A DNA stretch of 64,000 bases, from the NCBI GenBank assembly GCA_024691085.1, contig JAILNX010000021.1, positions 27,209 through 91,208 on the forward strand, given 5' to 3'. Origin of the DNA: Clostridiales bacterium (lineage in GTDB: Bacteria; Bacillota; Clostridia; Christensenellales; CAG-138). Shown here piece after piece: positions 1,691 through 16,956 of the stretch. The position numbers were made by a program, and so were the translations under genes. Every line of letters starts with the position of its first letter. Position 1 is the first letter of the stretch. Under the pieces are notes generated by a model. It searched no databases and was not told where the DNA came from. It saw only the letters and a list, made by a program, of their open reading frames with translations.

Positions 1691-3070
1691 ATGAAAGGTA
1701 AAGCAGGCGTGAGAATGATCGCAAGGATATGCGTTTTGCTGCTGATCTTATGCATTTGCGCCGTATTCTTTGTGAAGCATTTCAATTTCAAAGAGTATTC
1801 GGCTGACGACATGCAGGCTTTTCTCGACGACATGTGCAAAAAGCTGGACGTGCCGGCTATGTCTGCCGCAGTCTGGGATCATGACAGAGAGATCTATCTG
1901 AATCACAGCGACGGCGGCGAGATCGTTGACGAACACTCTTTGTATGAGCTGGCCTCCACGACAAAGGCGTTTACCGCGCTGGGGATCCTGCGGCTTAACG
2001 ACAGCGGCCTTCTAAGCTTTGACGACCCTGTCCAGAAGTACATCCCGGAATTTAACCCGACGTATAAAGGGAGCGAAGTTGAGATCACGATCGGACAGCT
2101 TCTGAATCATTCGAGCGGGATACCGTGGTATGCGCTTGACCTGATACCGGAAGAAGAGTATAACCCGGGCGGTCTGAAGAAGAGCCTTTCCAGACTGTTC
2201 GACGTCGAGCTGAGCTTCGAGCCGGGAAGCAGGTTTGATTATTCCACTGTAAATTATGATTTCCTGGCTCTGGCAGCCGAGACGGTCACGGGCATGGGAT
2301 ACGAGGAATACATCAAAACGACTGTCCTTGACGAAGTCGGAATGACGGGATCCTATTTCCGTTCTGCTGCCGTCGAGGAGGGTGTGACGCAGGGAAACAG
2401 AACGGCGTTCCTCTCCTCGCGCCCGTACAACGCCCCGGTATACTACGGAAACACTGCCGCGGGATATCTGATCTCGAACACCGGCGACCTGATGAAATGG
2501 ATGAAGCAGGTCGATACCCTGTTCGATTTTGAGGATTATTCCGTGAGCGATCAAAACGGTTATTTCGCCGGCTGGTGGATAGAAGACGATCGCGTTCTGC
2601 ACGGCGGGAACAATCCGAACTACTCGTCATACGTATTTGTGAATAGGGAAAGCCCGACGGGAGTCTTCGTGCTGTCGTCCAAAGCCGGAATGAGCGCCTG
2701 GTACGCCGCAGACGGACTGTATCGGATGCTGGAGGGAGAGACCGTCGGGAAAGGCCTTTGGATCGACTGCGGCTACAGCGACCTGGAGGATGCGCTGTTC
2801 CTGATAGTTCCCTTGCTGCTGCTCTATGTGTTACTGTGGATCCCCGCGGATTCAAAGGGAAGAGCGATCGTCCGTCTGGCTTCCGGCGCTGTGATATTGA
2901 TCGGGGTCCCGCTCCTGCTTTGCGTTTTGCCGGTAGGATTGCGCTTCGGCGTCGTCTGGCTTCCCGGCAGTTTTCTGTTCCTTTTCGGTTTTATCCTGAC
3001 TTTTGCGGTCTATCTGATCGTAAGGAGCGCGGTGTTTTTCCATAAAAACAAAAAAGCGACCTCGGCGTGA
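1691..3070 (+). CDS. Membrane-anchored serine beta-lactamase-like hydrolase (class C/PBP4* fold)
   Basis: A 459-residue protein. An N-terminal hydrophobic segment (IARICVLLLILCICAVFF) is followed by a beta-lactamase/transpeptidase-like domain with the SxxK nucleophile as S-T-T-K in LASTTKAF. A second motif reads Y-S-T in DYSTVNYDF (most relatives have Y-x-N), and a third reads HGG in VLHGGNN. Three membrane helices follow from about residue 365, with a basic tail. Such proteins act outside the cell on D-amino-acid peptides or esters, and antibiotic resistance cannot be assumed. An upstream TTG at 1643 keeps the frame open, but ATG at 1691 has GAGGGG before it. It converges on atpC. Confidence 0.82.
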   Translation: MKGKAGVRMIARICVLLLILCICAVFFVKHFNFKEYSADDMQAFLDDMCKKLDVPAMSAAVWDHDREIYLNHSDGGEIVDEHSLYELASTTKAFTALGILRLNDSGLLSFDDPVQKYIPEFNPTYKGSEVEITIGQLLNHSSGIPWYALDLIPEEEYNPGGLKKSLSRLFDVELSFEPGSRFDYSTVNYDFLALAAETVTGMGYEEYIKTTVLDEVGMTGSYFRSAAVEEGVTQGNRTAFLSSRPYNAPVYYGNTAAGYLISNTGDLMKWMKQVDTLFDFEDYSVSDQNGYFAGWWIEDDRVLHGGNNPNYSSYVFVNRESPTGVFVLSSKAGMSAWYAADGLYRMLEGETVGKGLWIDCGYSDLEDALFLIVPLLLLYVLLWIPADSKGRAIVRLASGAVILIGVPLLLCVLPVGLRFGVVWLPGSFLFLFGFILTFAVYLIVRSAVFFHKNKKATSA

Positions 3071-3126
3071 GAACGCCGTCCGCATAAGAGGTGTTCCGCC
3101 GGATCGAATACTGACGAAGGCTTGCG

Positions 3127-3435
3127 TTATTCCCGCAAATGCTTTTTTCCCGATCCCGTGTCCGAGACCGAATCGGTGATCACGGTCAGCACGTCGTTCT
3201 TTACGTAAAGAAAGCCCCCGGAAACGGCTGCGTAGAACGCCTCCGCGCTGTTTTCTTTCGCCCTGATCGGCGAGTTCTCCTCAAGTGCGATCACGGCGGG
3301 GACATGCCCGCGCCTTATGCCAACACTTCCGCCGGCATCTTCCCCCGCGCCGCGGGCGAAGACCGTTACGGAATCGCAGCCGACGGGAGGATTTTCGCCC
3401 GTCGGGGTTATTATTTTGAGTGTCAGCGCGCTCAT
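3127..3435 (-). CDS. atpC: F1Fo ATP synthase epsilon subunit, short form (N-terminal beta-sandwich only)
   Basis: 102 residues matching the epsilon-subunit beta domain: LKIITPTG at the start, then VGIRRGHVPAVIAL (the G-x-x-x-G-H-x-P signature) and AVSGGFLYVKNDVLTVITDSV. The usual C-terminal helical hairpin (family length about 130-140) is missing, and the protein ends soon after the beta-sandwich. In the F1 complex epsilon sits on the rotor stalk, and its C-terminal helices normally inhibit ATP hydrolysis, so this form would lack that brake if functional. Its ATG overlaps the stop of an atpD remnant (ATGA). No other atp genes are in the window. It could be a stranded relic of an atp operon. 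Confidence 0.8.
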   Translation of the reverse strand: MSALTLKIITPTGENPPVGCDSVTVFARGAGEDAGGSVGIRRGHVPAVIALEENSPIRAKENSAEAFYAAVSGGFLYVKNDVLTVITDSVSDTGSGKKHLRE

Positions 3436-5200
3436 TTACGCATCCGTGCTTTCTCAATAGGGGGAGAGGAAGGCCTCCCCGCTTCGGGAATAATAAAAGT
3501 GTTAAAGACTGCGAGAAAGCCGCGGCTTTCTCGCGAGCTGAGCCTTTGCTCAGCTCGGGGCTCGGTCTTGCTCGCCTTCGGTCACGTGCGATCCGGGACG
3601 GGGCTCGTCTTGCTCGCCTTCGGCGAGCTTCGGTCACTTGATTTCGTCCACCGGACGAAATCTGCGCTTCGAGCCCCTGCTTCGTTAAGTGTACCAAAAG
3701 AAGTGGCTCCCATTTGGGAGCCACTTCTTTTGGTACAGATGCACCCGATGTATCCGAACCCAAGCCCGATTCCTCGAGCTCGGCGAAGGTTACTGTTTTT
3801 GTTCCGTCCCGGAAGTTAAAGACGAATGTGATCCTGTCATCGTAGAGGTAGATCGCGTTCACGAAGCTGTCGATGAGCCTGCGCCTGTGCTCGAGCTTCT
3901 TCGTGTCGTACTTGCGCATACGCTCGAACCAGAACAGGAAATGCTCCCTTGTGAAAAGCGGCGGTCGGAGCAGTTCCTTGTGGGCAAGCAGCGTTTCGAG
4001 CTCCTTCTTGCTCTGTTCAAACTCCCAAAGCCGCTGCTTCGTCGATTCAGTGATGATCCCCTGCTGGAACGCGTTCAGAAGATTGCCGATACCCTTTTCG
4101 ACCTCCGAGAGCTGTTTCCTGAGCAGGGGAATCGCCTCGTTTTCCTTTCCCTGACGCTCGACGCCCATGTCGGCGAGGCGCTTTATCAGCTCGTCGTCCC
4201 AGAGTATTTTCTTGATCTGATCGATCACAACATCCTCGATCCATTCCTTGCGGACGGATCTTTTGTCGCACCCGCGATGATACTTTACGCTCACGCATTT
4301 GTAGTAACGGTGAACTACGCCGGTGTGGCTGTGTCCCGATTCGCCTGCCATGTAGCACCTGCATTTACCGCAGAACAGCTTGGTCGTCAGAAGGTATTCC
4401 TCGTCGGCCTTGAAGTGCGCCGCACTCTTTTTCGTCTGCTTCAGCTTCTCCTGCACCCGCTCAAAAAGCTCTTCGGGGACTATCGCGGGAATACCGTGCG
4501 GGACGGTCACGTCGCGGTATTTGTATTCGCCGATGTACTTCCTGTTGTGCAGCATTCGCGCAACACTGTTGCCGTCCATCTTGCCGCCGCGACAGGTGCG
4601 CATTCCGGCGAGATTCAGCATGTCGCAGACCTCGCGCATGTTCTTTCCGTTCGCGTAATCGGTAAACGCCCTGAGCACGAGCGGAGCCGTGACCGGGTCG
4701 ATCTGATAATGCTGCTCGCTGTCGATGACAAATCCGACCGGGACGTTGCCGCCGTTGTGCTTGCATTTCAGCGCGTTTTCGGTGAGCCCTCTCAGCACCT
4801 TTACGGCAAGCTCCTCTGAATAATACTGTGCCATTCCTTCGAGCAGGGATTCCAGAAGTATGCCTTCGGGACCGTCCGAGATCGCTTCCGTCGCCGATAC
4901 GACGCGCACACCGTTGTTGCGGAGCATACGCTTGTAATGCGCGGAATCGTACTTGTCGCGCGCGAATCTGTCGAGCTTCCAGACGAGTATCACTTCAAAC
5001 CTTTTGCTTGCGCTGTCCTTTATCATCCGTTGAAAATCGGGACGGTTGTCCGTCTTCGCGGACAGCGCGCGGTCGATGTAGGTTTCGATGATCTCGATGC
5101 CGTTCTTCGCAGCAAACGCTTTGCACTCGCGGAGCTGTCCCTCGATGGATTCCTCGCGCTGATTGTCGCTCGAATACCTCGCGTAGATAACGCCTTTCAT
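3281..5200 (-). CDS. Large serine recombinase (resolvase/invertase-type site-specific recombinase), 3' end replaced
   Basis: The frame gives 639 residues, but only about the first 488 (5200 to about 3740) are recombinase. Order: N-terminal resolvase domain with catalytic Ser in YARYSSDNQ and the motifs LVWKLDRFARDKYD and GILLESLLEGMAQYYSEELA; recombinase domain (MDGNSVARMLHNRKYIGEY); zinc ribbon with CGKCRC and a later C-x(8)-C pair; coiled coil; C-terminal strand region. It would cut and rejoin DNA at att sites for mobile-element movement. Past residue 488 the frame runs through the 21-base palindrome and into atpC in another frame, giving Arg-rich non-protein-like sequence. Start at 5200 has GGGAGGTG upstream. 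Confidence 0.82.
   Translation of the reverse strand: MKGVIYARYSSDNQREESIEGQLRECKAFAAKNGIEIIETYIDRALSAKTDNRPDFQRMIKDSASKRFEVILVWKLDRFARDKYDSAHYKRMLRNNGVRVVSATEAISDGPEGILLESLLEGMAQYYSEELAVKVLRGLTENALKCKHNGGNVPVGFVIDSEQHYQIDPVTAPLVLRAFTDYANGKNMREVCDMLNLAGMRTCRGGKMDGNSVARMLHNRKYIGEYKYRDVTVPHGIPAIVPEELFERVQEKLKQTKKSAAHFKADEEYLLTTKLFCGKCRCYMAGESGHSHTGVVHRYYKCVSVKYHRGCDKRSVRKEWIEDVVIDQIKKILWDDELIKRLADMGVERQGKENEAIPLLRKQLSEVEKGIGNLLNAFQQGIITESTKQRLWEFEQSKKELETLLAHKELLRPPLFTREHFLFWFERMRKYDTKKLEHRRRLIDSFVNAIYLYDDRITFVFNFRDGTKTVTFAELEESGLGSDTSGASVPKEVAPKWEPLLLVHLTKQGLEAQISSGGRNQVTEARRRRARRAPSRIARDRRRARPSPELSKGSAREKAAAFSQSLTLLLFPKRGGLPLPLLRKHGCVNERADTQNNNPDGRKSSRRLRFRNGLRPRRGGRCRRKCWHKARACPRRDRT
3432..3458 (-). 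pseudogene. atpD: Last eight codons of atpD (F1 beta subunit), rest absent
   Basis: In the frame that stops TGA at 3432-3434, overlapping the atpC ATG, the codons read I-E-K-A-R-M-R-K, which resembles the tail of F1 beta subunits. Immediately upstream the frame becomes Pro/Ser/Arg-rich and unlike AtpD. The atpD-atpC junction is therefore kept while the body of atpD is gone, with a breakpoint near 3460. Confidence 0.5.
3511..3736. repeat. Cluster of nested perfect palindromes
   Basis: In 226 bases there are at least five hairpins: a 24-base perfect palindrome (3511-3534); 9-base arms at 3535-3543 and 3548-3556; GCTCGCC/GGCGAGC around 3612-3628; 10-base arms at 3640-3649 and 3653-3662; and 21-base perfect arms with a 4-base loop at 3691-3711 and 3716-3736. 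GGGGCTCG near 3599 can also pair with CGAGCCCC near 3670, closing a branched structure over two inner hairpins. A partial direct repeat (CTTGCTCGCCTTCGG) occurs twice. No gene is recognisable here. Confidence 0.8.
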
Positions 5201-5240
5201 TCTCTTTAACACCTCCCTCCCGTGAGTTTCACTGCGGGGT

Positions 5241-5266
5241 TTCAGGGTTCTCCCTGACAAGCAGTA
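5241..5266 (+). repeat. Left arm of a 26-base inverted repeat
   Basis: This segment contains TCTCCCTGACAAGCAGTA and matches the reverse complement of 5524-5549 at 24 of 26 positions. It lies in the leader of the recombinase gene. Directly inside it is a hairpin, GGAAAGTG (5268-5275) with CACTTTCC (5280-5287). Confidence 0.75.
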
Positions 5267-5505
5267 CGGAAAGTGGGTACACTTTCCAGTGCTTGCCGAG
5301 ACAGTGCCGTTTCCAAATTCCCCGTGCGGGTATAATACCATATTCAATCGGGAATGTCCACGCTGAACCGTTATGTTCGTTCTTTCAATCATCCTCTCCG
5401 CGTCAATCCCCGTTGCTCTTTCTCAGCCTGTTTGGTATAATTGCTTCGGGATATAAACCGACTGAAAGAGTATCGCATGATGGGCGGCACTGCCTTCACA
5501 AGCAA

Positions 5506-5527
5506 AGTATTTGGCATGCCAAATACT
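5506..5527. repeat. Perfect 22-base palindrome
   Basis: The two halves AGTATTTGGCA and TGCCAAATACT are exact reverse complements. An outer pair ACAAGC (5498-5503) and GCTTGT (5528-5533) extends the stem after a two-base bulge. It sits just before the start of the small gene at 5571 and overlaps the right inverted-repeat arm. Confidence 0.8.
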
Positions 5528-5549
5528 GCTTGTCAGGGAGAGCCCTGAG
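5524..5549 (-). repeat. Right arm of the 26-base inverted repeat
   Basis: Reverse complement of 5241-5266 with two mismatches. The two arms bracket about 257 bases that contain a hairpin at each end and no recognisable gene. Together they lie between the divergent recombinase and the small gene at 5571. Confidence 0.75.
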
Positions 5550-5570
5550 GCCCCGCGAACGGAGTAAAGC

Positions 5571-5999
5571 ATGAAAGATGATTTGTTAAAACAGTATTCG
5601 ATATTCGAGGTGAAAAGAGCACTTTCGGAGGTCGAAAGAGAATACGGACGCGAGCAGGTCGAGCACATAGTCGGCAGGGATCGAGCCGAGGAGATCGACC
5701 GCGAATTTGAAAAAGAGATCGCTCTGCGGGTCGAGCCATATTGGAAGAATATTCTGGCTTACGAGCGAGGCGGTTTTTTCACGCAGGCGTTTTTGAGACT
5801 GAAATACTCCCTGAGAAGCAAGAGCGGTGAATGCGGCGTTCCTCAAAGCGTACTCGAAGCCATAGTCGATGATATGATGCCCGATATCCGCGCCTTCTTT
5901 GAATCCGAGGAGGGCATGCGCGAGTTTGAGGAGTGGAAGAAAACGCGCGAGCTGAAACAAGCTGAAAAGGAAACAAAATCCACGCAAAAAAAGCAGTGA
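5571..5999 (+). CDS. Unrecognised small, highly charged helical protein
   Basis: 142 residues with GGAG five bases before the ATG. The sequence is predicted almost entirely helical, with runs such as KRALSEVEREYGREQVEHI and REFEEWKKTRELKQAEKE, and it ends in a Lys/Gln-rich tail. There is no signal peptide, membrane segment or metal-binding motif. No family is recognised. Its position beside a serine recombinase and inverted repeats suggests a passenger or accessory gene of the same mobile element, which is inference only. Confidence 0.6.
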   Translation: MKDDLLKQYSIFEVKRALSEVEREYGREQVEHIVGRDRAEEIDREFEKEIALRVEPYWKNILAYERGGFFTQAFLRLKYSLRSKSGECGVPQSVLEAIVDDMMPDIRAFFESEEGMREFEEWKKTRELKQAEKETKSTQKKQ

Positions 6000-6015
6000 T
6001 CCATTAGCTTTTTCA

Positions 6016-6040
6016 ACTTCTGCACCAGTGGTGCAGAAGT
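6016..6040. terminator. Hairpin after the small gene
   Basis: Perfect 11-base arms ACTTCTGCACC (6016-6026) and GGTGCAGAAGT (6030-6040) with loop AGT, 17 bases after the stop at 5999. No T-run follows, so it may be a processing or pausing structure rather than a full terminator. Confidence 0.5.
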
Positions 6041-6125
6041 CGGATCTCCAAACAAATGACCGAAATTATGCGTTTGAAACCATAACAGAGTTTTTCAAAA
6101 AAATCAAGTAAATGTATGGATTTTC

Positions 6126-6154
6126 AAAAACCTGCACCAGTGTTGCAGGTTTTT
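6126..6154 (-). terminator. Bidirectional Rho-independent terminator
   Basis: Arms AAAAACCTGCA (6126-6136) and TGCAGGTTTTT (6144-6154) with loop CCAGTGT. Oligo-A and oligo-T flanks make it work in both directions. It abuts the stop of the leftward gene at 6154 and shares the GCACCAGTG core with the hairpin at 6016-6040. Confidence 0.75.
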
Positions 6155-6948
6155 CATTTATAACTTCTCTTCGTTAAATCATAAAGTGTGTACCGCTCAG
6201 AAAATGAAATTGGCTCATTCTCTTCATCAAGGTCGATTCCGTACTTTTTCAGCTCATCGAATAACATCTTCCCTTCGTCACAAACAGGAAGTGCACTGAT
6301 TGTGTGAACTAATTGATCTATTGAAGTTCGTTTTTTTGCGCAAAAATCGTCGCAGTAATAAATCCATTTATTTCCGTCAATATAGATTATGCTTGATATT
6401 CCTATGAAGAATAAATCGGTGAAAATGGCATTGTACTGACTTGCTCTTATAATATAGCACTTATACATAATACGCGCTTCATCCTTGCCCATCGAAAAGG
6501 GCAAATAAACACATAAGATATTTCTCCGAAACTTTGAATAATTGCCGTTTAGAAGTTTCAGTTTGTTTTCACATCTATCAACAACAGGTTTTGCAAAAAA
6601 AGAGTCGGCCCTTGGGTCGTCACTTTCAAGTCTCCCGTAGAAGCTATACATTTCAACCGAACTCAAAGTCTGTTCCTGTGATACTGTTATTCTCTTTTCG
6701 TGTTTTTTTAATCTCTTCTTAGGAATGGTATTAACAGGTTTTCCGAGATACTCGTTTGAAAAAGCCTTTGCATCCCCGTCGGCTTTTGATTCGGCTCGTA
6801 CAACCTCTATCCCGAAATCCGAAGAATAGTTCTGCCAATCAGGACTTTCGCCTTTCAGAGTACCTTTCAGTGGTACGAGATCAGGCAGGAACTTGTTTAT
6901 GACGAGCAATGCATATAGTTCATATTCCAATTTATTAAAACTGCTCAT
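6154..6948 (-). CDS. Unrecognised protein, possibly a PD-(D/E)XK-type nuclease or accessory subunit
   Basis: 264 residues, AT-rich codons. Near residues 34-52 it reads ESPDWQNYSSDFGIEVVRAE, in the style of a nuclease core (SPD followed some 12 residues later by a hydrophobic-Glu strand). The final Lys of PD-(D/E)XK is not evident, so activity is uncertain. The rest is mixed alpha/beta with no membrane segment. Its ATG overlaps the stop of yhcG (ATGA at 6945-6948), implying coupled translation and probably a joint function. Last gene of the leftward defence operon, followed by a strong terminator. Confidence 0.6.
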   Translation of the reverse strand: MSSFNKLEYELYALLVINKFLPDLVPLKGTLKGESPDWQNYSSDFGIEVVRAESKADGDAKAFSNEYLGKPVNTIPKKRLKKHEKRITVSQEQTLSSVEMYSFYGRLESDDPRADSFFAKPVVDRCENKLKLLNGNYSKFRRNILCVYLPFSMGKDEARIMYKCYIIRASQYNAIFTDLFFIGISSIIYIDGNKWIYYCDDFCAKKRTSIDQLVHTISALPVCDEGKMLFDELKKYGIDLDEENEPISFSERYTLYDLTKRSYK

Positions 6949-7958
6949 GGCGCAAACTTTTTACTATCCTCCGTCTCGGCAATCACGGTTATCTCGCGCA
7001 GTTTTTCTTCGAGAAGTTTTTTGTCCGGCAGTTTCAGAGTATAATCCGCCACCATTGCGGGAGAAAGACTGCCGCTTAGCGCATATTCAACTACGGTATC
7101 GTCCTTGTAGGTACACAGGATCAAACCAACACTTGGGTTTTCGTTCGGCTTCTTTACGTCCCTGTTCAGTGCTTCAAGATAGAAGTTGAGCTGACCAAGA
7201 TGCTCCGGCTTGAATTTGCCGACCTTGAGCTCGACCGCGACAAGGCAGGACAGCGCGCGGTTGTAGAAGAGGAGGTCGAGATAGAAATCGGTATTTCCGA
7301 CCTGAATACGGTACTCCTCGCCCATGAAAGAGAAGTCCTTGCCGAATTCCAGAATAAACCGTTTCAAATTCGCAATAATGGATCTTCTCAGATCCTTTTC
7401 CTTGTAATCATCGGGGATATCAAGGAACTCCAGCACATACGAATCCCGAAGCGCGCCGACTGCCGGATGCTTTTCGATAAGGCTCTTGTTTTTATCGGCA
7501 GAAATCATCGTGCGCTCAAAAAGCATGCTTTCTATCTGCCTTTCTAGCTCGCGCTTTGTATAGCCGTTCGCTATGCAGAGCCTTAGATAAAACTCCTTCG
7601 CCTCGTCTGTTCGGCAGGCGATCATTATAACCAAATTATTAGTCCATGTAATTTCTCTCACCAGCGGTGAGAGATTCGGCTTGTCACGGTACGTTTCGAA
7701 AAATTGCTTCATCCTCCAAAGATTTTGCGCCGAAAAGCCGCTTGCGGAAGGATAAGCGTTTTTCAAATAATCAGAGAATTCCTGTACGACGCTTTTTCCC
7801 CAGCCGTCCTCATCGGATTTGAGGCTAAGGTATTCGCCGATCTTCCAATACATTTCGATCATTTCGGAATTGACCGCTTTTATCGCCCGCGCCTTCGACT
7901 GCTCGATGATCTCGATTATCGGCTCGAAGGCAGTGCTGTATTTAATAATGTCTGACAT
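6945..7958 (-). CDS. yhcG: YhcG-family PD-(D/E)XK nuclease (DUF1016)
   Basis: 337 residues, the normal size for DUF1016/YhcG proteins. An N-terminal helical domain (MYWKIGEYLS, GWGKSVVQEFSDYL, FSAQNLWRMKQFFETY) is followed by the C-terminal nuclease domain with FMGEEYRIQVG, FYLDLLFYNRALSCLVAVELKVGKF (catalytic D and E-x-K) and HLGQLNFYLEAL. These enzymes occur often inside type I restriction loci, and their exact role in defence is not settled. Start at 7958 has AGGAG eight bases upstream. The frame extends to 8000 but without a better ribosome site. It is coupled to the next gene by ATGA. Confidence 0.9.
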   Translation of the reverse strand: MSDIIKYSTAFEPIIEIIEQSKARAIKAVNSEMIEMYWKIGEYLSLKSDEDGWGKSVVQEFSDYLKNAYPSASGFSAQNLWRMKQFFETYRDKPNLSPLVREITWTNNLVIMIACRTDEAKEFYLRLCIANGYTKRELERQIESMLFERTMISADKNKSLIEKHPAVGALRDSYVLEFLDIPDDYKEKDLRRSIIANLKRFILEFGKDFSFMGEEYRIQVGNTDFYLDLLFYNRALSCLVAVELKVGKFKPEHLGQLNFYLEALNRDVKKPNENPSVGLILCTYKDDTVVEYALSGSLSPAMVADYTLKLPDKKLLEEKLREITVIAETEDSKKFAP

Positions 7959-8035
7959 AGCACAATCTCCTGTTTGGTTATTCTTTGTAACTGTTTTCAA
8001 TGATACAATAACACCAAGTGCGAAATGTGTATAGA

Positions 8036-8128
8036 TTATACATTCCTCGTTAATAAATCAGCAATTGTTGTCATCGCTTCCGTAATCATGGAAAAACCCT
8101 TTCCTTCAATCTCCGTTTTCTTATTCAT
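8036..8128 (-). CDS. Putative 30-residue peptide
   Basis: A short frame starting at ATG 8128 with AGAGGT seven bases upstream and ending TAA at 8036-8038. The product is MNKKTEIEGKGFS followed by MITEAMTTIADLLTRNV. It lies in the gap between the second hsdS tail and yhcG on the operon strand, about 80 bases before yhcG. No family is recognised. The ribosome site and operon position favour translation, but it may equally be a relic of a longer gene. Confidence 0.3.
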   Translation of the reverse strand: MNKKTEIEGKGFSMITEAMTTIADLLTRNV

Positions 8129-8178
8129 AATACCTCTTTTGTCATTGTGCACATCGTTTCTGATGTTCTCTTAGTCTA

Positions 8179-8262
8179 TTACAGCCTTTCGCACAGGGGC
8201 AGGAGTTCGTTAAGCCGGGCGACGATGCGCTGCTGCTCGGAAGACGCCAAGCGCCGTATCAC
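8179..8262 (-). pseudogene. hsdS: hsdS 3' tail, copy 2 (27 codons)
   Basis: The frame reads VIRRLASSEQQRIVARLNEL then LPLCERL and stop TAA at 8179. This is the characteristic C-terminal end of type I restriction specificity subunits (E-Q-x-R-I-V-A-x-L-x-E-L-L-P-L-C-E-R-L). No other part of hsdS is nearby. Its first codon is GTG, sharing one base with the TAG stop of the DUF2971 gene, so it could be translated by coupling. The last 50 bases match the copy at 9166-9252 with only a few differences. It is best read as a relic, though a functional mini-protein is not excluded. Confidence 0.7.
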
Positions 8263-9164
8263 TAAAAAGATAGAATCGGTTTCTTGTTCAGCTTATACTC
8301 TGCCGCGTCTTTTTCCATTCTGTAAAGCGTGATTCTTCTTTCCTTGCAGATTTCCGTTACCTTTGCCGAAAATTCATCCGAAGCTTCGCAGCCGAGTATC
8401 ACGGCATGGGGTTTGATGGACGGGAGAAGCGCACCGTGCTTTTCGGCGTTCCATGCGCTGCCGCAAGCGGAGGCATCCCGGATAATTCGCCACTCTTTTT
8501 CATAGCTCCATTCTGGAGACTTGGTCAGCAGTGTTTCAATCAAAAACTCCATTATCCTCGGACGTTCGCCAACAATGTCATCCAAGCTCAAACCCGGTCT
8601 TTTATCATCATAAAGAACCGGCGCGGGCGAGAACTTAAGCTGCTTATTAAACTCAAGGAATTCATATTCTGCACACATTCACTTATGGTGTTGAGCATAA
8701 TGAGCCCACATAAGCAGAGAGCTGTCGCTTTCGCTGAAGCACGAAATGCCTTTACGCAGTCGAAGAATATGCAGACTATCACAAAAAGCATTCAGTAGAC
8801 TTTTCGCATTGGTTCCAGCGGTCTCCCATTCGGGACGGTCCTTGCTCAAATCGGCAGTTTCTTGCAGGTGTGCAAGCATATCCGTTAGAACTCTATCCTT
8901 ATTCACAGGAAAGTCAACGTCAAAAACATCATTGAAGTTTGCAGGAGAATCATACCACATCGTATCGTCAGCAAGATTTGCAATGCTATAATCGCTAACC
9001 GGACAATACTTGTAGATAAGCTGCGGCGCAAGATTCCGGTATATGTATTCGCCTCTCTCGTGGTCGTTTGGGGAATCTAAACCACAAAGGACTTTGCAGT
9101 ATAATGCACGAAGTTCTTTTTTCCAAGTTTCTTGTCTGTCATTAAATTGTTCCATCGATATCAC
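8262..9164 (-). pseudogene. DUF2971 family protein interrupted by one in-frame TGA
   Basis: Two consecutive frames in the same register, 161 and 138 residues, are separated only by TGA at 8679-8681. Together they form one DUF2971-like protein. The N-terminal part has LIYKYCPVSDYSIANLADDTMWYDSPANFND and CFSESDSSLLMWAHYAQHHK; the second part resumes MCAEYEFLEF. Relatives read H-x-H-K-G-x-C-x-E-Y at this spot, so the TGA stands exactly where a Gly (GGA) is expected. The C-terminal SPEWSYEKEWRII motif is intact. DUF2971 genes are frequent in defence islands but their function is unknown. The start is a GTG at 9164 or ATG at 9155. Other genes here end in TGA, so TGA is stop. Confidence 0.78.
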
Positions 9165-9165
9165 T

Positions 9166-9252
9166 TCATTTCAACCTTTCGCATGGGGGCAGGAGTTCGT
9201 TAAGACGGGCGACGATGCGCTTTTGCTTGGCGAGCTTTTTGAAAAGTATCAT
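9166..9252 (-). pseudogene. hsdS: hsdS 3' tail, copy 1 (28 codons)
   Basis: The frame begins ATG at 9252, overlapping the helicase stop as ATGA, and reads MILFKKLAKQKRIVARLNEL then LPPCERLK with stop TGA at 9166. This is the C-terminal end of a type I specificity subunit. One base after its stop comes the GTG start of the DUF2971 gene, so helicase, tail and DUF2971 are packed without gaps. The upstream third differs from copy 2, while the RIVARLNELLP part is nearly identical. Confidence 0.7.
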
Positions 9253-12200
9253 GCTATTGATAGTACTCCGTTGGTTTCCTTCAGCATGCCGTTTCTCTTT
9301 AGCAAATCGACGGCCAGATCATATCTTTCAACGATGGATTCGCCTGTTCTGCTGAAGCCGAGCAGATTCGTCATTGTTTTATATAGGCCGTCTTTTGTAA
9401 TTGAGACGTTTTGCTTGACTAAAGTGAAGACTCCATCCGCGAGCTCTTCTACGGCGATGTACTGAATATCACGCCGGTCGCCGGGAATGCGCAGCCGGAT
9501 CTTGTTCATTTCGGAAAGATATAAGAATCCGTTTTTGCGAACTATGCCGTATCTTTCGCATGCCTGCATCTTCTCATGGTATTTATCGCGTACAAGGTTC
9601 GTCACTTTTTCTCTTCCGAACAAAGAAACGATCCTCTTCAGCAGATATTCCTCCGAAAGCGGAGCTTCTCTATTTAAAATCTCCTTTACTGCTGAGGGAA
9701 AGCTGTAATGAAACCTATCAAAAACATCCAATGCGTCAAGCTGTTTATACTTTGGAAAATCGGAGCTTTTCTCTATTTTCTCCTCCGCAAACCTGCTTTG
9801 ACTATCACTTGCGGTATCGACTTCCGCCCCCGAATTATTGTCGTCGATCTCTTCTCCCATGACTCGTCTTCTTACAGCTTCTCTAGCGATCCTGAGGAGG
9901 TTTTCCTTCTCAACGGCATTATTCTTATACCAGTCGGTCGACCAGATCCTGTAGAACTGCCAGCCCATGTTTTCAAGCACTCTCTGCCTCAAGCTGTCGC
10001 GATCCCTTGCATTCTTCGACGCATGATAAGACGCGCCGTCGCATTCAACGGCAAGAACATAATTGGAGCTTCCGGGCAGTCTAATTCCCATATCGATCTT
10101 GAAACCGGAGCATCCAATCTGCGTATCGACGGTGAAGCCTTTATCGCGCAGGAATTCGCAGACCTCAAGCTCAAAGTCTGAGTCGAAAGAGTCTTCGGAT
10201 CGAACGGTAATACCCCTTTCCAGTGCAGTCTCTCCATTCTGAGCATAGTCAAGATATGCGCGAAGAAGCCTTGCGCCTTCCGAACCGGCACCCTTGAGAT
10301 CGATATCCGTATAAACTATTGACGAAACAAGCTGAACATTATCCTTTGCTCTTGTTACGGCAACATTGAGCCTTCGCTCGCCACCCTCCCTGTTCAGAGG
10401 GCCGAAGTTGTTGATGAATCGGCCTTGACTGTCTCTTGCATAAGCAACGCTGAAAATAATGGTATCTCTTTCATCACCCTGAACGGTTTCCAGGTTCTTT
10501 ATGAAGAAAGGTTCGGGCCTGTCCGAACTGAAGAACCATTCAATGGAAGGATTCGATTCGCGGCGCCTTGAAAGCAGCTTGTCGATCAAGTTCTGCTGAG
10601 CTGCGGAGAAAGCAACGACTCCGAGGCTGCGTTTCGGATACTCGGCAATGTTTTGATAAATGAGGTCAACAATGAACTCGGCTTCGGCCCTGTTGGTCTT
10701 TGTTCTTCTGTCAAACACTCCGTCAACGCGGTAGAAGTCGACTCCAATACCCTTGTGATCAGCCGAAGCTGACGGGAACGTAACAAGCTTGTTATTATAG
10801 AAATTCAAATTAGAGAACGCGATAAGCTGCTCATAATGGCTTCTGTAATGCCACGCAAGCCTTTCCGTGTTGAAGACTGAGCTGCCGATATCAAGAAGTG
10901 ACTCGAAATCGGTCACATCTCCGACCTCCTCATCTTCGTCTTCGTCATTATCCATACTCGAGGTAAAGAAATTGCTTGGCGGCATCTGCCTTGAATCGCC
11001 TACTACAATCAGCTGAGCACCCCTGTACACCGCACCTATTGCGTCCTGCGGGAAAATCTGAGACGCCTCGTCAAACACAACTGTGTCAAAGCTGATTTTT
11101 TCGGGGTCGAGGAAGGTGCTTACGCTCAGAGGAGACATCATAAAGCAAGGCTTCAAAAGCTGAGCAAGCTCGGCTGTTTCGGACAGCAGCTTCCTTATGG
11201 GCATCTTCTTTCGTTTTTTCTGTCCCTCTCTTCTGAGCACAGCAACCGAACTTCCCCCGGCAACCATAGAAAGATCCGGCCTTTTTTGAGAAAGCGCGGC
11301 TTTGATCTGCAGCTTGCTGATCTCGTACTGCAAAGCATCTTTACTGCAGAACTCTTTTACAGCTTGATCCTGCCGTATCCTTGAGAACGATTTGAGTTCA
11401 GGAGAGGAAAACAATATTGCTTCTATCCAGTTTTCGTAATACTGCCTGCGGAAAGAACCTACAATCTCCTCCGGTGCAAGCTCGTTTTCAATAGCCAAAT
11501 CGATGAATCCCAGAAGATCGAAGCTGTTTGCCCGATATAACAATTCCGAAAAAGCTATCCAGTTGCTCAGCTTACCAAAGTTGCGGAGACAACCTTCGAT
11601 CTTTCGGATGCAGTAATCATAGCTGTCTTTTTCAAGATCCAGAATATTACTTGCAAAGAGCTGAGAGACACGCGCTTTTGCGTCGGAAACCGAGCTTATA
11701 TCTTCTTCGAGAGTTTCCGAATCGTCTTTGAACCCCTTTTTAAGTTCAACAAACTTTTCGAAGCTTTCCGACGGAAGAGACCCATAGGAACAGCGGTCAT
11801 AATCATAGCATTTTCTCAGATCGTCCAAAGCAATAAACACCGCTTCCCAATCGGTATCAACGCCCTTGTAACATGAACCGAGATATCCTGCAGCCTGGGT
11901 CTCGATTTCATCAAAGACCTTTTTCGCAGCCTGCATCTTTTTCAGGCTGTCGGAAAGCGCAACCGCATCTTTATACGACGGCTTGCTGTTAGAAACAGAA
12001 TACTGTTTGAGCCTTGCAATGAGCTGTTTATACTCGCCGCTGAACAGTCTCGAAATACCCGAACGATACTTTTCGGTTAATTGTGAATGCAGCTCCGCCC
12101 CGGAAAGCTCTGAAAGAATACCCGGAGTGTACCTCTCGAGTATTCTGTCTCTTTCAGGCACTATCTCCTTACATAGATTTCTCATCCTGCCAAGTATCGG

Positions 12201-13904
12201 GAAAGCATGATCGAACTTGCTTTTTGTGAGCAGCGCCGGCGTGACAGCATCGGAACCTGCGGAGAACTCAAGGAAAGAACGCAGCCATACAGTATCGGAA
12301 AAGTTCAAATCCGGAGTTTCATATTTGGTTTTTATTTCCGCTGTCTTGCTTTTAAGCGAGCAGTATCCTTCCAACAGCTTTTCAAGATCTGTTTTTAGCG
12401 TAATCTGCTCTTCATAATCTATATCTTCCTTGATAAAACCGTACCAACTGTTCTCCCTGTAATTGGCCCCGATAGACGGGATATACTCAACATATTGCTC
12501 AAGCGTTTTAATTGCGGCAAGGAACCATTCCTCGCCCTTATTTTCAATATCCTTTAGTCTGAAATGTATTTCCGGGAAGCCCCTGTCTGAAGAATACAGT
12601 TCAAAGAGCTGATACAAGGATTTGTTGACGGGAGATCTGTTCGCATGCAAAGCTTTCTCGTATTCGTCAAGCTTTGAAAGGGCCTCCTTTTTGCGTCTAA
12701 TCTCGTCAAAAGCACCCCTTGGATAGCGGATCGGAGCCGCTTCGAGAGTCCTGTTCAGTTCATTTATTACAACATTCTTATTAGCTTTATGACTGTGCAG
12801 CTCAAGACAAAAATCCGAAAGGCCGGCTTTTTTCAGCTTCTCATAAACAACGTTCAAAGCGGCTTGCTTTTCAGAAACAAAGAGGACCTTTTTTCCATCA
12901 TGGAGGCACTCGGCTATTATATTTGTAATTGTTTGGCTTTTCCCTGTACCCGGCGGTCCCTGGAGGACAAAGCTTTTTCCGCTCTTTGCCATTTCGATCG
13001 CTTCGATTTGGCTGGAATCGGCATCGACAACGGTATGCAGATCAACAAGAGGATTCTCGACAATGCCTCTGACATCATCCGTCGAAAAGCCCACTTCTTC
13101 GGGAATGCTCTCACCGATCAGAGCTCTGACGTTTGAGTTTTTAAGAATCTGTTCGGCATTGTTTTTCAGATCTTCATACATATTGATCTTCAGGAAAGAG
13201 AAGATTCCCAGCTTACACTCGTTGAGTACCTTCCACCCCAATTTGCTTACAACCGAACTTACCTTGGAATAATAACTCTCTAGAGTTTCGCCGTCTTCAT
13301 ACTCCGGGAGCTCGATACCGTAATCCGACTTTATACGATAGTTGAATGTGGGATTTATTACCAAGTCATCATCGCTTATCTCGATTTTTACCGGATCAAG
13401 CACCGAGCCGGTGATTATATTAACGTGAACGAGAATAAGCGGCGCACGGTAAACGATATCAGAGCCGGTTTTTTCCGTCCATTCCAAAAATCCGAAAACG
13501 AGATAAGCAACATTCAGGCCCGTCTCTTCCTGTATCAGCTGAGCTTTTTTTGCTATGTTTTTGACAGCTGTTATTGGATTTGGAGTTTGGGAATAGAACA
13601 GAAGCCTTCCTCCGCTCATTCTCTGCGAATAATACCGAATATGATCGGCTTTACTTAACCGCGCGTCTTTGTTTGCAGAAAACAGACTGGTTTGGAGATC
13701 GGTATCGGAATCCTCGTCGGGGATGTGAGGATCATAGACGTCAAAGGCATGCCCGACAGAGCATTTTGAAAATACAGCTTCACAATTTGGGAATACAACT
13801 TCAGCAGTTGAAGCCTTTGTATCCTTGAAACTGATAAGATTGTTCCTTTTTCCCGTATCGAGCAGTTTCTCCGCCCAGCGATCCAGCTTTTTTCTATCTG
13901 CCAT
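9249..13904 (-). CDS. Defence-type giant helicase: DUF4011 - SF1 helicase - Vsr-like nuclease - DUF3320
   Basis: 1551 residues. Residues 1-290 match DUF4011 (DRWAEKLLDTGKRNNLISF). Walker A is GPPGTGKS at about 316-323; Walker B is VVFDEASQIFPQDAIG near 943, followed by VVGDSRQMPPS. Later SF1 motifs are VQGDERDTIIFSVAYAR near 1138 and LNVAVTRAKDNVQLV near 1178. A Vsr/DUF559-like nuclease fold lies at about 1245-1325 (FELEVCEFL, FKIDMGI, LAVECDGASYH, GWQFYRIWSTDWYKNN), then a DUF3320-like tail (LDVFDRFHYSF). This architecture is reported among single-gene antiphage systems (I recall 'Hhe', unverified). It probably unwinds and cuts invading DNA. Start has GAGGTGG upstream. Confidence 0.9.
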   Translation of the reverse strand: MADRKKLDRWAEKLLDTGKRNNLISFKDTKASTAEVVFPNCEAVFSKCSVGHAFDVYDPHIPDEDSDTDLQTSLFSANKDARLSKADHIRYYSQRMSGGRLLFYSQTPNPITAVKNIAKKAQLIQEETGLNVAYLVFGFLEWTEKTGSDIVYRAPLILVHVNIITGSVLDPVKIEISDDDLVINPTFNYRIKSDYGIELPEYEDGETLESYYSKVSSVVSKLGWKVLNECKLGIFSFLKINMYEDLKNNAEQILKNSNVRALIGESIPEEVGFSTDDVRGIVENPLVDLHTVVDADSSQIEAIEMAKSGKSFVLQGPPGTGKSQTITNIIAECLHDGKKVLFVSEKQAALNVVYEKLKKAGLSDFCLELHSHKANKNVVINELNRTLEAAPIRYPRGAFDEIRRKKEALSKLDEYEKALHANRSPVNKSLYQLFELYSSDRGFPEIHFRLKDIENKGEEWFLAAIKTLEQYVEYIPSIGANYRENSWYGFIKEDIDYEEQITLKTDLEKLLEGYCSLKSKTAEIKTKYETPDLNFSDTVWLRSFLEFSAGSDAVTPALLTKSKFDHAFPILGRMRNLCKEIVPERDRILERYTPGILSELSGAELHSQLTEKYRSGISRLFSGEYKQLIARLKQYSVSNSKPSYKDAVALSDSLKKMQAAKKVFDEIETQAAGYLGSCYKGVDTDWEAVFIALDDLRKCYDYDRCSYGSLPSESFEKFVELKKGFKDDSETLEEDISSVSDAKARVSQLFASNILDLEKDSYDYCIRKIEGCLRNFGKLSNWIAFSELLYRANSFDLLGFIDLAIENELAPEEIVGSFRRQYYENWIEAILFSSPELKSFSRIRQDQAVKEFCSKDALQYEISKLQIKAALSQKRPDLSMVAGGSSVAVLRREGQKKRKKMPIRKLLSETAELAQLLKPCFMMSPLSVSTFLDPEKISFDTVVFDEASQIFPQDAIGAVYRGAQLIVVGDSRQMPPSNFFTSSMDNDEDEDEEVGDVTDFESLLDIGSSVFNTERLAWHYRSHYEQLIAFSNLNFYNNKLVTFPSASADHKGIGVDFYRVDGVFDRRTKTNRAEAEFIVDLIYQNIAEYPKRSLGVVAFSAAQQNLIDKLLSRRRESNPSIEWFFSSDRPEPFFIKNLETVQGDERDTIIFSVAYARDSQGRFINNFGPLNREGGERRLNVAVTRAKDNVQLVSSIVYTDIDLKGAGSEGARLLRAYLDYAQNGETALERGITVRSEDSFDSDFELEVCEFLRDKGFTVDTQIGCSGFKIDMGIRLPGSSNYVLAVECDGASYHASKNARDRDSLRQRVLENMGWQFYRIWSTDWYKNNAVEKENLLRIAREAVRRRVMGEEIDDNNSGAEVDTASDSQSRFAEEKIEKSSDFPKYKQLDALDVFDRFHYSFPSAVKEILNREAPLSEEYLLKRIVSLFGREKVTNLVRDKYHEKMQACERYGIVRKNGFLYLSEMNKIRLRIPGDRRDIQYIAVEELADGVFTLVKQNVSITKDGLYKTMTNLLGFSRTGESIVERYDLAVDLLKRNGMLKETNGVLSIA

Positions 13905-13922
13905 TTTCCACCTCGATCATCT

Positions 13923-13941
13923 ATTCCGGCGAGCCCGGAAT
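13923..13941 (-). promoter_or_regulatory. Hairpin in the helicase mRNA leader
   Basis: ATTCCGG (13923-13929) pairs with CCGGAAT (13935-13941) around loop CGAGC, within the roughly 75-base untranslated leader and some 15-20 bases before the ribosome site. It could modulate translation; no known riboswitch is recognised. Confidence 0.35.
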
Positions 13942-13982
13942 GCGGTTTCACAGCGCACCCAACAACTACAAATATCCACTTT

Positions 13983-14011
13983 ATTTTACCATGTTTTTGC
14001 TTTTGTATCAA
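13983..14011 (-). promoter_or_regulatory. Promoter of the defence operon
   Basis: On the minus strand, TTGATA (14011-14006), exactly 17 bases, then TAAAAT (13988-13983). This is close to the sigma-A consensus, about 80 bases before the helicase start. Confidence 0.65.
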
Positions 14012-14041
14012 GTCTGCAAAACATGTATCCGGGCAGTACAA

Positions 14042-14067
14042 GAGGCGCAGAGCTTTTTCTGCGCCTC
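14042..14067 (-). terminator. Hairpin terminating tnpV
   Basis: GAGGCGCAGA (14042-14051) and TCTGCGCCTC (14058-14067) form a perfect 10-base stem that overlaps the stop codon of tnpV. No long T-run follows on the minus strand, so strength is uncertain. Confidence 0.5.
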
Positions 14068-14374
14068 AACCAATGATGTTTACTGATAGATCAGATCGCT
14101 CAGCACGAACTCTTCCGCTTTTTCTGATCCAGTTCATCTCACGCGTCCACTTCAGCTCGTCGGAGGCTTTGAGAGCCTCGTTGATACCGTCGCGTTCGCA
14201 GCACTGTCTGACGATCAGATCGTACGTTTCCTGCGCGTCGCGGTCAAGCCCGGCGAGGTAGTCCTCGAGAGTGCCGTTGAGCCGCATTGAGGTTACGACG
14301 GAGGGCTTATTGTTTTTGAGATACTGATAATGTCTGAATCCCCAGACGCCGACCTTGTCGATAGTGATTTCCAT
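14066..14374 (-). CDS. tnpV: TnpV-family transposon-associated protein
   Basis: 102 residues resembling TnpV, a small helical protein carried by clostridial transposons. Recognisable parts are the R-H-x-x-Y-L-K-x-x-K core near residues 13-22, NGTLEDYLAGLDRDAQETYD, and the C-terminal LKWTREMNWIRKSGR. Its molecular role is unknown. ATG at 14374 with CTGGAGG nine bases upstream is preferred over the in-frame extension to 14446. It sits between a tRNA-Lys gene and the defence island and supports the view that this segment arrived on a mobile element. Confidence 0.72.
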   Translation of the reverse strand: MEITIDKVGVWGFRHYQYLKNNKPSVVTSMRLNGTLEDYLAGLDRDAQETYDLIVRQCCERDGINEALKASDELKWTREMNWIRKSGRVRAERSDLSVNIIG

Positions 14375-14492
14375 TTTGCATATCCTCCAGTTGATTTTGT
14401 TGTTCTTTTTGAGCCTGTTAATTCGGATACGCCATATAAACGACAAATCCGAACCCTTCGCCTACCGGCTTGAGGTTCGGATACATGTCGTG

Positions 14493-14568
14493 TGGTACAC
14501 CTTCAGGGGCTCGAACCCTGGACACCCTGATTAAGAGTCAGGTGCTCTACCAACTGAGCTAAAGGTGC
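14493..14568 (-). tRNA. tRNA-Lys (anticodon CTT)
   Basis: A full cloverleaf on the minus strand. The acceptor stem is GCACCTT/AAGGTGT with a first G-U pair. The D arm is AGCTCAGTTGGTAGAGC, the anticodon stem CCTGA/TCAGG encloses loop CTCTTAA (anticodon CTT), and the T arm is CAGGG-TTCGAGC-CCCTG. The discriminator is A and CCA is encoded at 14495-14493. Its 3' end faces the leftward mobile/defence region. Confidence 0.95.
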
Positions 14569-14589
14569 GTTCTTTCGTTTGCAAAGAGT

Positions 14590-14617
14590 ATTATACTCAT
14601 AAAAAGAAAAATTGCAA
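14590..14617 (-). promoter_or_regulatory. Promoter of tRNA-Lys
   Basis: Minus strand TTGCAA (14617-14612), 16-base spacer, TATAAT (14595-14590), about 21 bases before the tRNA 5' end. Confidence 0.6.
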
Positions 14618-14767
14618 GCCCTTTTTTAATATATTTGCAAAATAATCTGCCGGGCGGCCTGTCGGGCGGCGGGTTTTACGCAGTTTTTACATATTTTTGG
14701 TGCGTTCGTTACAATTGGTGTGTATAATAGAAGCATGAAAACCCAAGACACTGAGGAGGTGCTCATT

Positions 14768-15598
14768 ATGATAAACAGGGCAGAGATCAAGGAACGCGCA
14801 AAGAATATGTTCCAGAGCCGCTACTGGCCGAGCGTCGGGCTGTTCGCGATATTCGCGGCGCTTACCGGGTCGGTCGGCGTAGGGTTCGGCTTTACATTCA
14901 ACAACGGCAGCCTGAAGGATCTGTTCGACGGCTCCGGAAACAGTATCATCCCGCCCGCCATCGCGATCGCGTTCGCGGTATTCGGTGCGATAATGTCCTT
15001 CATGGGCATACTCTACTACATCTTCGTAGGCGGCCCGTTCACCGTATCCTCGGCCAGGACCGGGCTTAACATCTACGACGGCTCGGGCGTGAACTTCAAG
15101 GACGTCATCTTCTGCTTCCGCGACGGGCGCTACAAGAAGTCGGTCGGCGCGATGGCGCTTTACATGCTGTTCACAATGCTCGCGTGCTTCGTCGTGATGA
15201 TCCCTCTTATGGTGATCGCGATCGCTGCGGGCGTGATCATTGCGAATAACCTTGAGCTGAGCGAATGGGCGTTGGCTGCGATGATCGCGCTCTTCGGAGT
15301 GATCGCCGGCCTCGGCTCGTCCGTTCCCGCCGTCATCGTGAGCGAGGGCCTTTCGCTGACGCCCTACCTCGTAGCGGACGAGGGGCTTTCCGGCATGAAC
15401 GCGATCAGAAGGTCGTGGGAGATCATGCGCGGACACAAGTGGGAACGCTTCGTACTCGAGCTTTCGTTCCTCGGCTGGGGCATTCTTACCGTGCTCACCT
15501 GGGGCATTGTCGGCATCTTCTTTGTAAATCCGTACATGAACGTCACCTACGCGGGCTACTACCGCGAGCTTACAAGGGGCGAGATAACCGAATACTGA
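14768..15598 (+). CDS. DUF975 family integral membrane protein
   Basis: 276 residues with about five or six membrane helices. The N-terminal MINRAEIKERAKNMFQSRYWPSV is the typical DUF975 entry (R-x-x-x-K-x-x-A-K). The late motif GLSGMNAIRRSWEIMRGHKWERFVLELSFLGW is the most conserved part of the family, and it ends FVNPYMNVTYAGYYREL. The family has no established role and is common in Firmicutes. ATG at 14768 is preceded by GAGGAGG; a TATAAT lies at 14723-14728 about 40 bases upstream. Single gene, convergent with the aminopeptidase. Confidence 0.85.
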   Translation: MINRAEIKERAKNMFQSRYWPSVGLFAIFAALTGSVGVGFGFTFNNGSLKDLFDGSGNSIIPPAIAIAFAVFGAIMSFMGILYYIFVGGPFTVSSARTGLNIYDGSGVNFKDVIFCFRDGRYKKSVGAMALYMLFTMLACFVVMIPLMVIAIAAGVIIANNLELSEWALAAMIALFGVIAGLGSSVPAVIVSEGLSLTPYLVADEGLSGMNAIRRSWEIMRGHKWERFVLELSFLGWGILTVLTWGIVGIFFVNPYMNVTYAGYYRELTRGEITEY

Positions 15599-15610
15599 TG
15601 TGAATATGTT

Positions 15611-15640
15611 AAAAGGCTCCTTCTCACGAAGGAGCCTTTT
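15611..15640. terminator. Bidirectional terminator
   Basis: Perfect 13-base arms AAAAGGCTCCTTC (15611-15623) and GAAGGAGCCTTTT (15628-15640) with loop TCAC. It serves the DUF975 gene and the convergent aminopeptidase operon. Confidence 0.9.
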
Positions 15641-15650
15641 TCCGTTTGAG

Positions 15651-16955: not shown

Positions 16956-16956
16956 A

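Follow-up and report, generated by a model that had tools for sequence, protein, structure and literature searches.

The locus analysed here raises the question of how the 3′ end of hsdS, the gene for the specificity subunit of type I restriction systems, came to stand twice behind unrelated defence genes. It lies in a stretch of 64,000 nucleotides (hereafter the window) from a Clostridiales bacterium, whose draft genome comprises 1.98 Mb in 38 contigs and is 94% complete. The answer that we consider probable is that cargo genes dock at the hsdS 3′ end and leave tail copies behind, the window being such an array that has lost hsdRMS and is decaying. Features of the window and the gene order of arrays found in other genomes are collected in Table 1.

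Table 1. Features of the window (positions and strand) and gene order of the hsdS-tail arrays of other genomes
Feature	Position	Strand	Evidence or gene order
hsdS 3′ tail copy 1	9166..9252	-	28-codon frame; tail HMM 40.0 bits; nhmmer 5.6e-14
hsdS 3′ tail copy 2	8179..8262	-	27-codon frame; tail HMM 47.1 bits; nhmmer 3.0e-15
Direct repeat D1, tail 1 side	9168..9230	-	Repeat search, 87% identical to 8178..8240
Direct repeat D1, tail 2 side	8178..8240	-	Repeat search
TnpV transposon-associated gene, upstream of helicase	14066..14446	-	Pfam
Helicase-nuclease (DUF4011, AAA, MTES_1575), 1551 aa	9249..13904	-	Pfam; PADLOC PDC-S37 1391.7 bits
DUF2971 gene (PADLOC PDC-S31)	8262..9164	-	Pfam, PADLOC; in-frame TGA 8679-8681
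YhcG/DUF1016 nuclease (PADLOC PDC-S02), next listed gene downstream of tail 2	6945..8000	-	Pfam; PADLOC 425 bits
264-aa gene without profile match, overlaps YhcG	6154..6948	-	ORF
Large serine recombinase, far end of presumed island	3281..5392	-	Resolvase, Recombinase, Zn_ribbon_recom domains
L134			hsdR, hsdM, hsdS, small ORF and 277-aa gene (no Pfam match), tail, MIDYLNLKN gene
L135			hsdR, hsdM, two genes, hsdS, FRG gene, tail, MIDYLNLKN gene
L136			hsdR, hsdM, hsdS (frameshifted), HNH gene, tail, MIDYLNLKN gene
L137			hsdR, hsdM, hsdS, 197-aa gene, tail
L138			HsdR, weak tail, HNH_2 gene, tail, 153-aa gene, damaged tail, weakly AbiGii-like gene (30 bits)
L178			hsdM, hsdS, 212-aa gene, tail, 154-aa gene, decayed tail, another gene
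L255			hsdS, two cargo genes, decayed tail; window genome's own family
L259			hsdS, one cargo gene (205 aa), decayed tail; window genome's own family

The two tails follow the helicase and DUF2971 genes and their start codons overlap the preceding stops, as the initial annotation had described. The frame of copy 1, translated MILFKKLAKQKRIVARLNELLPPCERLK as read from the sequence, opens with an ATG overlapping the helicase TGA and closes one base ahead of the GTG opening the listed DUF2971 ORF, in which an ATG nine bases further inside may be the real start. Copy 2, translated MIRRLASSEQQRIVARLNELLPLCERL, begins at a GTG inside TAGTG, overlapping the DUF2971 stop. Both were also recovered as a 63-nt direct repeat of 87% identity (D1), the longest direct repeat among those listed for positions 2500-20000. 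The tail HMM (24 aa), built from HsdS ends of other genomes with the window copies excluded, gave no match of at least 18 bits in 833,620 bp of block-shuffled DNA (maximum 12), and a 41-nt tail pattern, written from the two window copies themselves, had two matches in the window and 0 in 100 shuffles. Given these shuffled-DNA controls, a chance match is excluded.

The tail corresponds to the terminal stretch of HsdS, beginning at the IPLPP motif or immediately beyond it. This proline-rich motif is described as preceding each of the two HsdS dimerisation helices (PMC3874165). The first half of HsdS ends with a similar stretch (the internal TRD1 repeat). Copies from five tested loci were 0.77-0.95 identical to the C-terminal end versus 0.60-0.70 to the internal repeat, and this lower identity rules out the latter as their source in those loci. 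The same kind of tail ends a full HsdS in L137 (PF01420, 106.3 bits). In plasmid records the best tail position fell inside a gene annotated as subunit S in 17 of 17 cases; alignment of the tail to viral contigs gave 13 loci, and the six of these checked by HMM all lay inside long hsdS frames.

A degenerate tail pattern retrieved 98 loci from the genome collection. Together with the window they contain 164 tail matches of at least 25 bits, of which 27 are orphans (open frame of <150 codons upstream and <80 codons downstream, contig edges excluded): the two of the window and 25 spread over 23 further loci. These orphans are of two kinds. At least six single ones (L013, L030, L041, the first copy of L061, L010 and L077) are preceded by 22-88 residues of HsdS similarity and, judged by this similarity, are truncated or decayed hsdS genes; several further single orphans, with about 10-38 such residues, are ambiguous. 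The second kind is short and sits directly behind an unrelated gene. The initial annotation had named full hsdS genes reduced by simple deletions as the case that would speak against its proposal; that case fits the six or more single orphans elsewhere.

Unselected sampling of tail occurrence is thin. With the tail HMM, 14 of 391 genomes of the class match, and frames of <100 codons occur only in the window genome and in G354, where the match is at the same place as in the L077 genome. One of 49 genomes with a long hsdS frame has an orphan (protein HMM), and the tail HMM finds matches in 25 of the 300 genomes of the G608 family, six of which have one in a frame of <80 codons.

The layout hsdS, one or two unrelated cargo genes, tail copy was directly observed in seven genomes (L134, L135, L136, L137, L178, L255 and L259). 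By a cargo array we mean an unrelated cargo gene behind which, no more than about 60 nt away, stands a short, equally oriented copy of the hsdS tail, an arrangement that the window also shows. Two arrays have no adjacent hsdS, that of L138 (three tails, one weak) and that of the window (two). Profiles confirmed hsdR, hsdM and hsdS of L137 and HsdR of L138; the other genes were named by likeness of their first residues, except hsdM of L134, named by position because the ORF filter displayed its antisense. Some copies are damaged: the third of L138 and the second of L178 are frameshifted or interrupted, and those of L255 and L259 were matched over the last 30-56 nt only. The three most decayed copies were called from their position together with nhmmer E-values of 6.9e-4, 0.015 and 0.026.

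Altogether 26 hsdS regions were laid out (L134-L137, L178-L185, L187, L211-L217, L219 and L255-L259). A downstream tail copy was present in seven, five of which had been fetched because of that copy, and none was detectable in the other 19. Among the 13 regions fetched for their hsdS tail (L211-L217, L219, L255-L259), two had a downstream copy, decayed in both.

PADLOC was run on seven cargo genes outside the window that adjoin tails or lie in arrays, a set that leaves aside the 197-aa, 153-aa and 205-aa genes. Two of the seven exceeded 40 bits, the FRG gene of L135 (PDC-S15, 48.6 bits) and the HNH_2 gene of L138 (HNH, 81.3 bits), and three matched weakly (25.7-30 bits: the HNH gene of L136, a 577-aa gene of L138 and a 235-aa gene of L255). 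The 277-aa gene of L134 and the 212-aa gene of L178 had no PADLOC match. Beside single orphan tails we noted a Dsr1-like SIR2 gene (L140) and a bSEFIR gene (L139).

The comparison of one empty site with three filled ones bears most directly on how such arrays form. In L219, recognised by eye, hsdS passes straight into the MIDYLNLKN gene via TTGAAATGAGGTGAAATCCATG. In L134, L135 and L136 this junction recurs at the tail copy, displaced behind a different cargo in each, which is what insertion of a cargo-plus-tail unit behind hsdS predicts. Four genomes have the MIDYLNLKN gene itself, of about 80 aa and without a Pfam match, immediately after hsdS or after a tail copy (L136 9700-9945; L219 3042-3290, reverse complement).

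A cargo gene bounded by tails was also seen directly in two different surroundings. L138 and L178 have one long DNA segment in common, 571 bp at 89% identity, which extends from inside the left tail to inside the right tail. Identity is 91% in the gene, 88% in the spacer from stop to tail, 73% in the left tail and 65% in the right tail, and drops in the flanks to 49-50%, the level of unrelated DNA; the other six matches between the two loci span just 43-74 bp and align tails or the hsdS repeat with each other. That the tails of this unit are more diverged than its gene counts against the docking reading. The 153-aa gene of L138 is a relative of the L178 gene. Relatives of cargo genes recur elsewhere too: L135 contains, further downstream, a 49% relative of the L137 197-aa gene, and the 212-aa gene of L178 has one after the decayed tail of L259, with the start of another after the orphan tail of L010 (by eye).

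On average, the tail copies resemble the resident hsdS more than other hsdS ends. Over the last 46 nt, identity is 0.870 (mean) to the hsdS of the same locus versus 0.738 to that of other loci, and the own-locus assignment ranks first among 5040 permutations (7 loci) and among 24 (four loci of one family); this stretch was picked after the decayed copies had been seen, and the four stretches used gave 1, 1, 8 and 2 of 5040. A 57-nt stretch gave a weaker own-locus excess (8 of 120 with five loci, 8 of 5040 with seven, 8 of 24 within one family). Taken singly, five of the seven first copies have their best match in the hsdS of their own locus, the exceptions being L135 and L178.

From these observations we propose that the hsdS 3′ end would be a docking site in type I operons of this HsdS subfamily. 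Cargo would enter immediately downstream of hsdS, and a copy of the terminal 50-75 nt of hsdS would end up behind it, so that cargo would come to sit between two direct repeats and the next gene would keep its stop-plus-Shine-Dalgarno junction (...TTGAAATGAGGTGA...ATG). Existing units might then move by recombination between tails, homologous or using short homology, and new units might arise by rare illegitimate joining of a cargo gene to a tail. The suggestion of the initial annotation that cargo is swapped at the hsdS 3′ tail is thereby supported by loci in other genomes; we infer that recombination is the mechanism.

The junction may itself matter, as the tail-end TGAGGTGA could drive expression of the next gene. 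Some hsdS ends read TGAGG, the stop overlapping a Shine-Dalgarno-like GAGG shortly before the next start. Eight of 13 tail copies have it versus 18 of 75 hsdS ends (p=0.017, the copies not all being independent), so that TGAGG is a common but not a general tail end. In the second copy of L178 and in those of L255 and L259 the 3′ part is kept and the rest decayed. Such features suggest that the tail could double as a ribosome-binding junction. The window tails end in TGAAG and TAATA, both lacking TGAGG, in line with a decaying array.

Whether the hsdS 3′ end serves more generally as an integrase-free docking platform, combining a homology arm with a stop/ribosome-binding junction at which operons, several of them in Clostridia, trade defence-gene cassettes, is a broader proposal that we put forward tentatively and that falls somewhat short of probable.

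It has to be weighed whether anything moved at all: each tail might be the remnant of a complete second or third hsdS that once followed the cargo, with no cassette movement. Truncated or decayed hsdS genes do exist in the set, as the six orphans with 22-88 upstream residues indicate, and extra hsdS pieces are known from shuffling loci (PMC6265443). Against this, in the array copies HsdS homology begins near one point (top-ten medians -16 to +6 residues from the first column of the tail; window copy 2, L134 (L011), L135 (L019), L137 (L099), both of L138 (L089), the first of L178, L255 and L259). The exceptions are window copy 1 and L096, with HsdS-like upstream extensions of about 20 and about 31 residues at low identity, which we take as chance. 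Moreover, the empty site L219 contains just one hsdS, next to the same right-hand gene, and the 571-bp unit of L138 and L178 both begins and ends in tails. We regard an origin by deletion as unlikely.

Movement might alternatively be due to an enzyme, the tail being an att-like site for an integrase or for a serine recombinase of the island, as in integrons or the pneumococcal tvr locus. Direct repeats do flank a unit (L138/L178), recombinase genes occur in or near several regions (the window, by profile; L134, L216, L217 and L219, by eye), and those downstream of hsdS in L216, L217 and L219 resemble, by eye, that of the window; the tvr locus is described as moving hsdS pieces by recombinase-driven excision and reintegration at direct repeats (PMC6265443). 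Against this, visual inspection of the ORF maps of the seven arrays revealed no recombinase between hsdS and the last tail, and the 5′ ends of the copies vary among array tails. Five tails folded as single-stranded DNA gave z values of 0.10, -3.95, 1.17, 0.67 and -0.42, only the L134 tail folding better than its shuffles, and attC-like folding was not seen as a consistent property. Fourfold third-base identity in the tail was 0.460 versus 0.434 and 0.413 in other conserved hsdS blocks (43 genes). Because the fold is inconsistent and the excess of synonymous conservation small, an att-like or attC-like site is disfavoured, and we hold it to be quite improbable.

The further idea, raised with regard to HsdM in the initial annotation, that the tails are translated, coupled mini-proteins (the HsdS end including the start of the second dimerisation helix) binding HsdM or HsdS encoded elsewhere would accord with the open frames and stop-overlapping starts of both window copies, but is very improbable, as the 1.98-Mb, 94%-complete draft contains no HsdS and no convincing HsdM and several copies elsewhere are damaged (L138, third; L178, second) or reduced to the last 30-56 nt (L255, L259).

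Under the docking reading, the window would consist of two array units, helicase plus hsdS tail and DUF2971 plus hsdS tail, followed by YhcG. With their matches to PDC-S37, PDC-S31 and PDC-S02, the three genes form a row of candidate defence genes. The helicase matches its profile over positions 7-1544 of 1550 and is apparently intact. The DUF2971 gene is split by its in-frame TGA into two ORFs of one frame, which match positions 6-133 and 135-256 of the PDC-S31 profile, and is for this reason probably a pseudogene; given this stop, the array looks to be decaying. The TGA affects a single codon and is either a nonsense mutation or an assembly error. The 264-aa gene that overlaps YhcG has no match in Pfam, NCBIfam or PADLOC.

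A complete hsdS, as a functional type I system would need, was not found in the 38 contigs of the 94%-complete draft: PF01420 gave 0 matches, and N6_Mtase gave two weak matches only (25 and 20.4 bits, at a cut-off of 20.4). The window copies are 0.877 identical to each other, and their best identities to 178 other tails are 0.842 and 0.860. They share RIVARLNELLP, of which LNELLP alone also occurs in L086, and the exact pattern RIVARLNELLPxCE had 0 matches over the contigs of the genome collection. As the copies are a little closer to each other than to other tails and share this motif, the simplest explanation is that both derive from one lost resident hsdS. The island would once have had a resident hsdS ending RIVARLNELLP-CERL and would then have lost hsdRMS. 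We infer this history, since the search of the genome gave no HsdS and no relative was found with the locus.

Relatives were searched in several ways. The tail pattern with 3 mismatches in 201 genomes (the window's own and 200 relatives) and a wider pattern in 391 genomes of the class found the two window copies only; blastn of 8160-9278 gave no match in plasmids and phages, and a protein-level tail pattern gave 0 in viral contigs. Within the family, 9 of 103 genomes, the window's own included, match the tail HMM, several of them in long hsdS frames, and the helicase at E 1e-100 found, in the same 103 genomes, the window and one partial match (37% identity, residues 766-1433). As the pattern, tail-HMM and helicase searches of relatives returned no genome with the window's own locus, the latter stands without a comparison partner. 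Helicase homologues of 52% identity in L227 and L228 have no adjoining tail. A longer relative of the helicase in L230 (5565-11938; 40% over residues 671-1546) precedes a DUF2971-like gene (by eye), and no tail separates the two, so this combination of helicase and DUF2971 may recur.

Among known systems, integron cassettes with attC come close in form: each unit is one gene with one recombination-competent tail, and units stand in tandem in a common orientation and are expressed from upstream. The arrays described here likewise consist of gene-plus-tail units in tandem and in one orientation, but their tail is the coding end of hsdS with no consistent single-strand fold, and no integron integrase was seen by inspection. 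Elements that integrate at gene 3′ ends (tRNA, guaA) leave a displaced copy of the gene end at the far side of the insert, much as a copy of the host gene's 3′ end is found beyond the insert here; the present units, in contrast, comprise one or two genes with no visible integrase, and displaced ends can accumulate in tandem.

At the pneumococcal tvr locus (SpnIV), hsdS pieces are described as excising and reintegrating at direct repeats (PMC6265443), so that there, too, segments can leave a type I locus and return to it by way of direct repeats. As described, however, tvr shuffles specificity domains, mainly via its own recombinase TvrR, of which no counterpart was seen inside the arrays here, and the loading of unrelated defence genes behind hsdS is not part of that description. 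The PrrC gene is reported to be embedded in the EcoprrI type IC operon (PMC3874165, PMC12707154), likewise an unrelated defence gene inside a type I operon; there it is a single gene functionally tied to the enzyme, and these accounts describe no hsdS-tail copy behind PrrC. In the mostly open-access literature, bioRxiv preprints not covered, we found no description of hsdS-tail copies bounding other genes.

To our knowledge, how defence islands gain single genes without transposases is poorly understood. If the docking reading is true, each gain would have left a legible trace in the form of a repeated hsdS tail, marking neighbours that arrived as units, and any gene between two hsdS tails would become a candidate defence gene, offering a route to automatic discovery. 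It would also account for the restriction-unrelated genes that stand tight behind hsdS in many type I operons, and the exchange could be tested in a laboratory strain.

Several minor observations concern the surroundings of the array. The recombinase domains lie at residues 68-394 of the 703-residue listed ORF, which probably extends past the true gene on either side. A 33-nt inverted repeat (91%; 5234-5266 and 5524-5556) beside the recombinase start is possibly a piece of an attachment region or an element end, and a perfect 23-nt inverted repeat with a 2-nt spacer (3690-3737), just past the likely recombinase end, is probably a terminator-like or element-end structure. Also beside the recombinase, 3127-3435 gives a truncated match to the F1 ATP synthase epsilon subunit (profile positions 1-83 of 137, below cut-off); this gene may have been disrupted by the island or become joined to it. 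A possible 30-aa frame (MNKKTEIEGKGFSM...) preceded by GAGG lies in the interval from tail 2 to YhcG, at about 8030-8128 on the minus strand (by eye). Near the helicase, an M18 aminopeptidase is encoded at 16955-15651; in L227 (8979-15054) a tRNA-like sequence and an M18-like aminopeptidase gene (both by eye) come after the 52%-identical helicase, and the M18 neighbour of both possibly marks a common insertion region.
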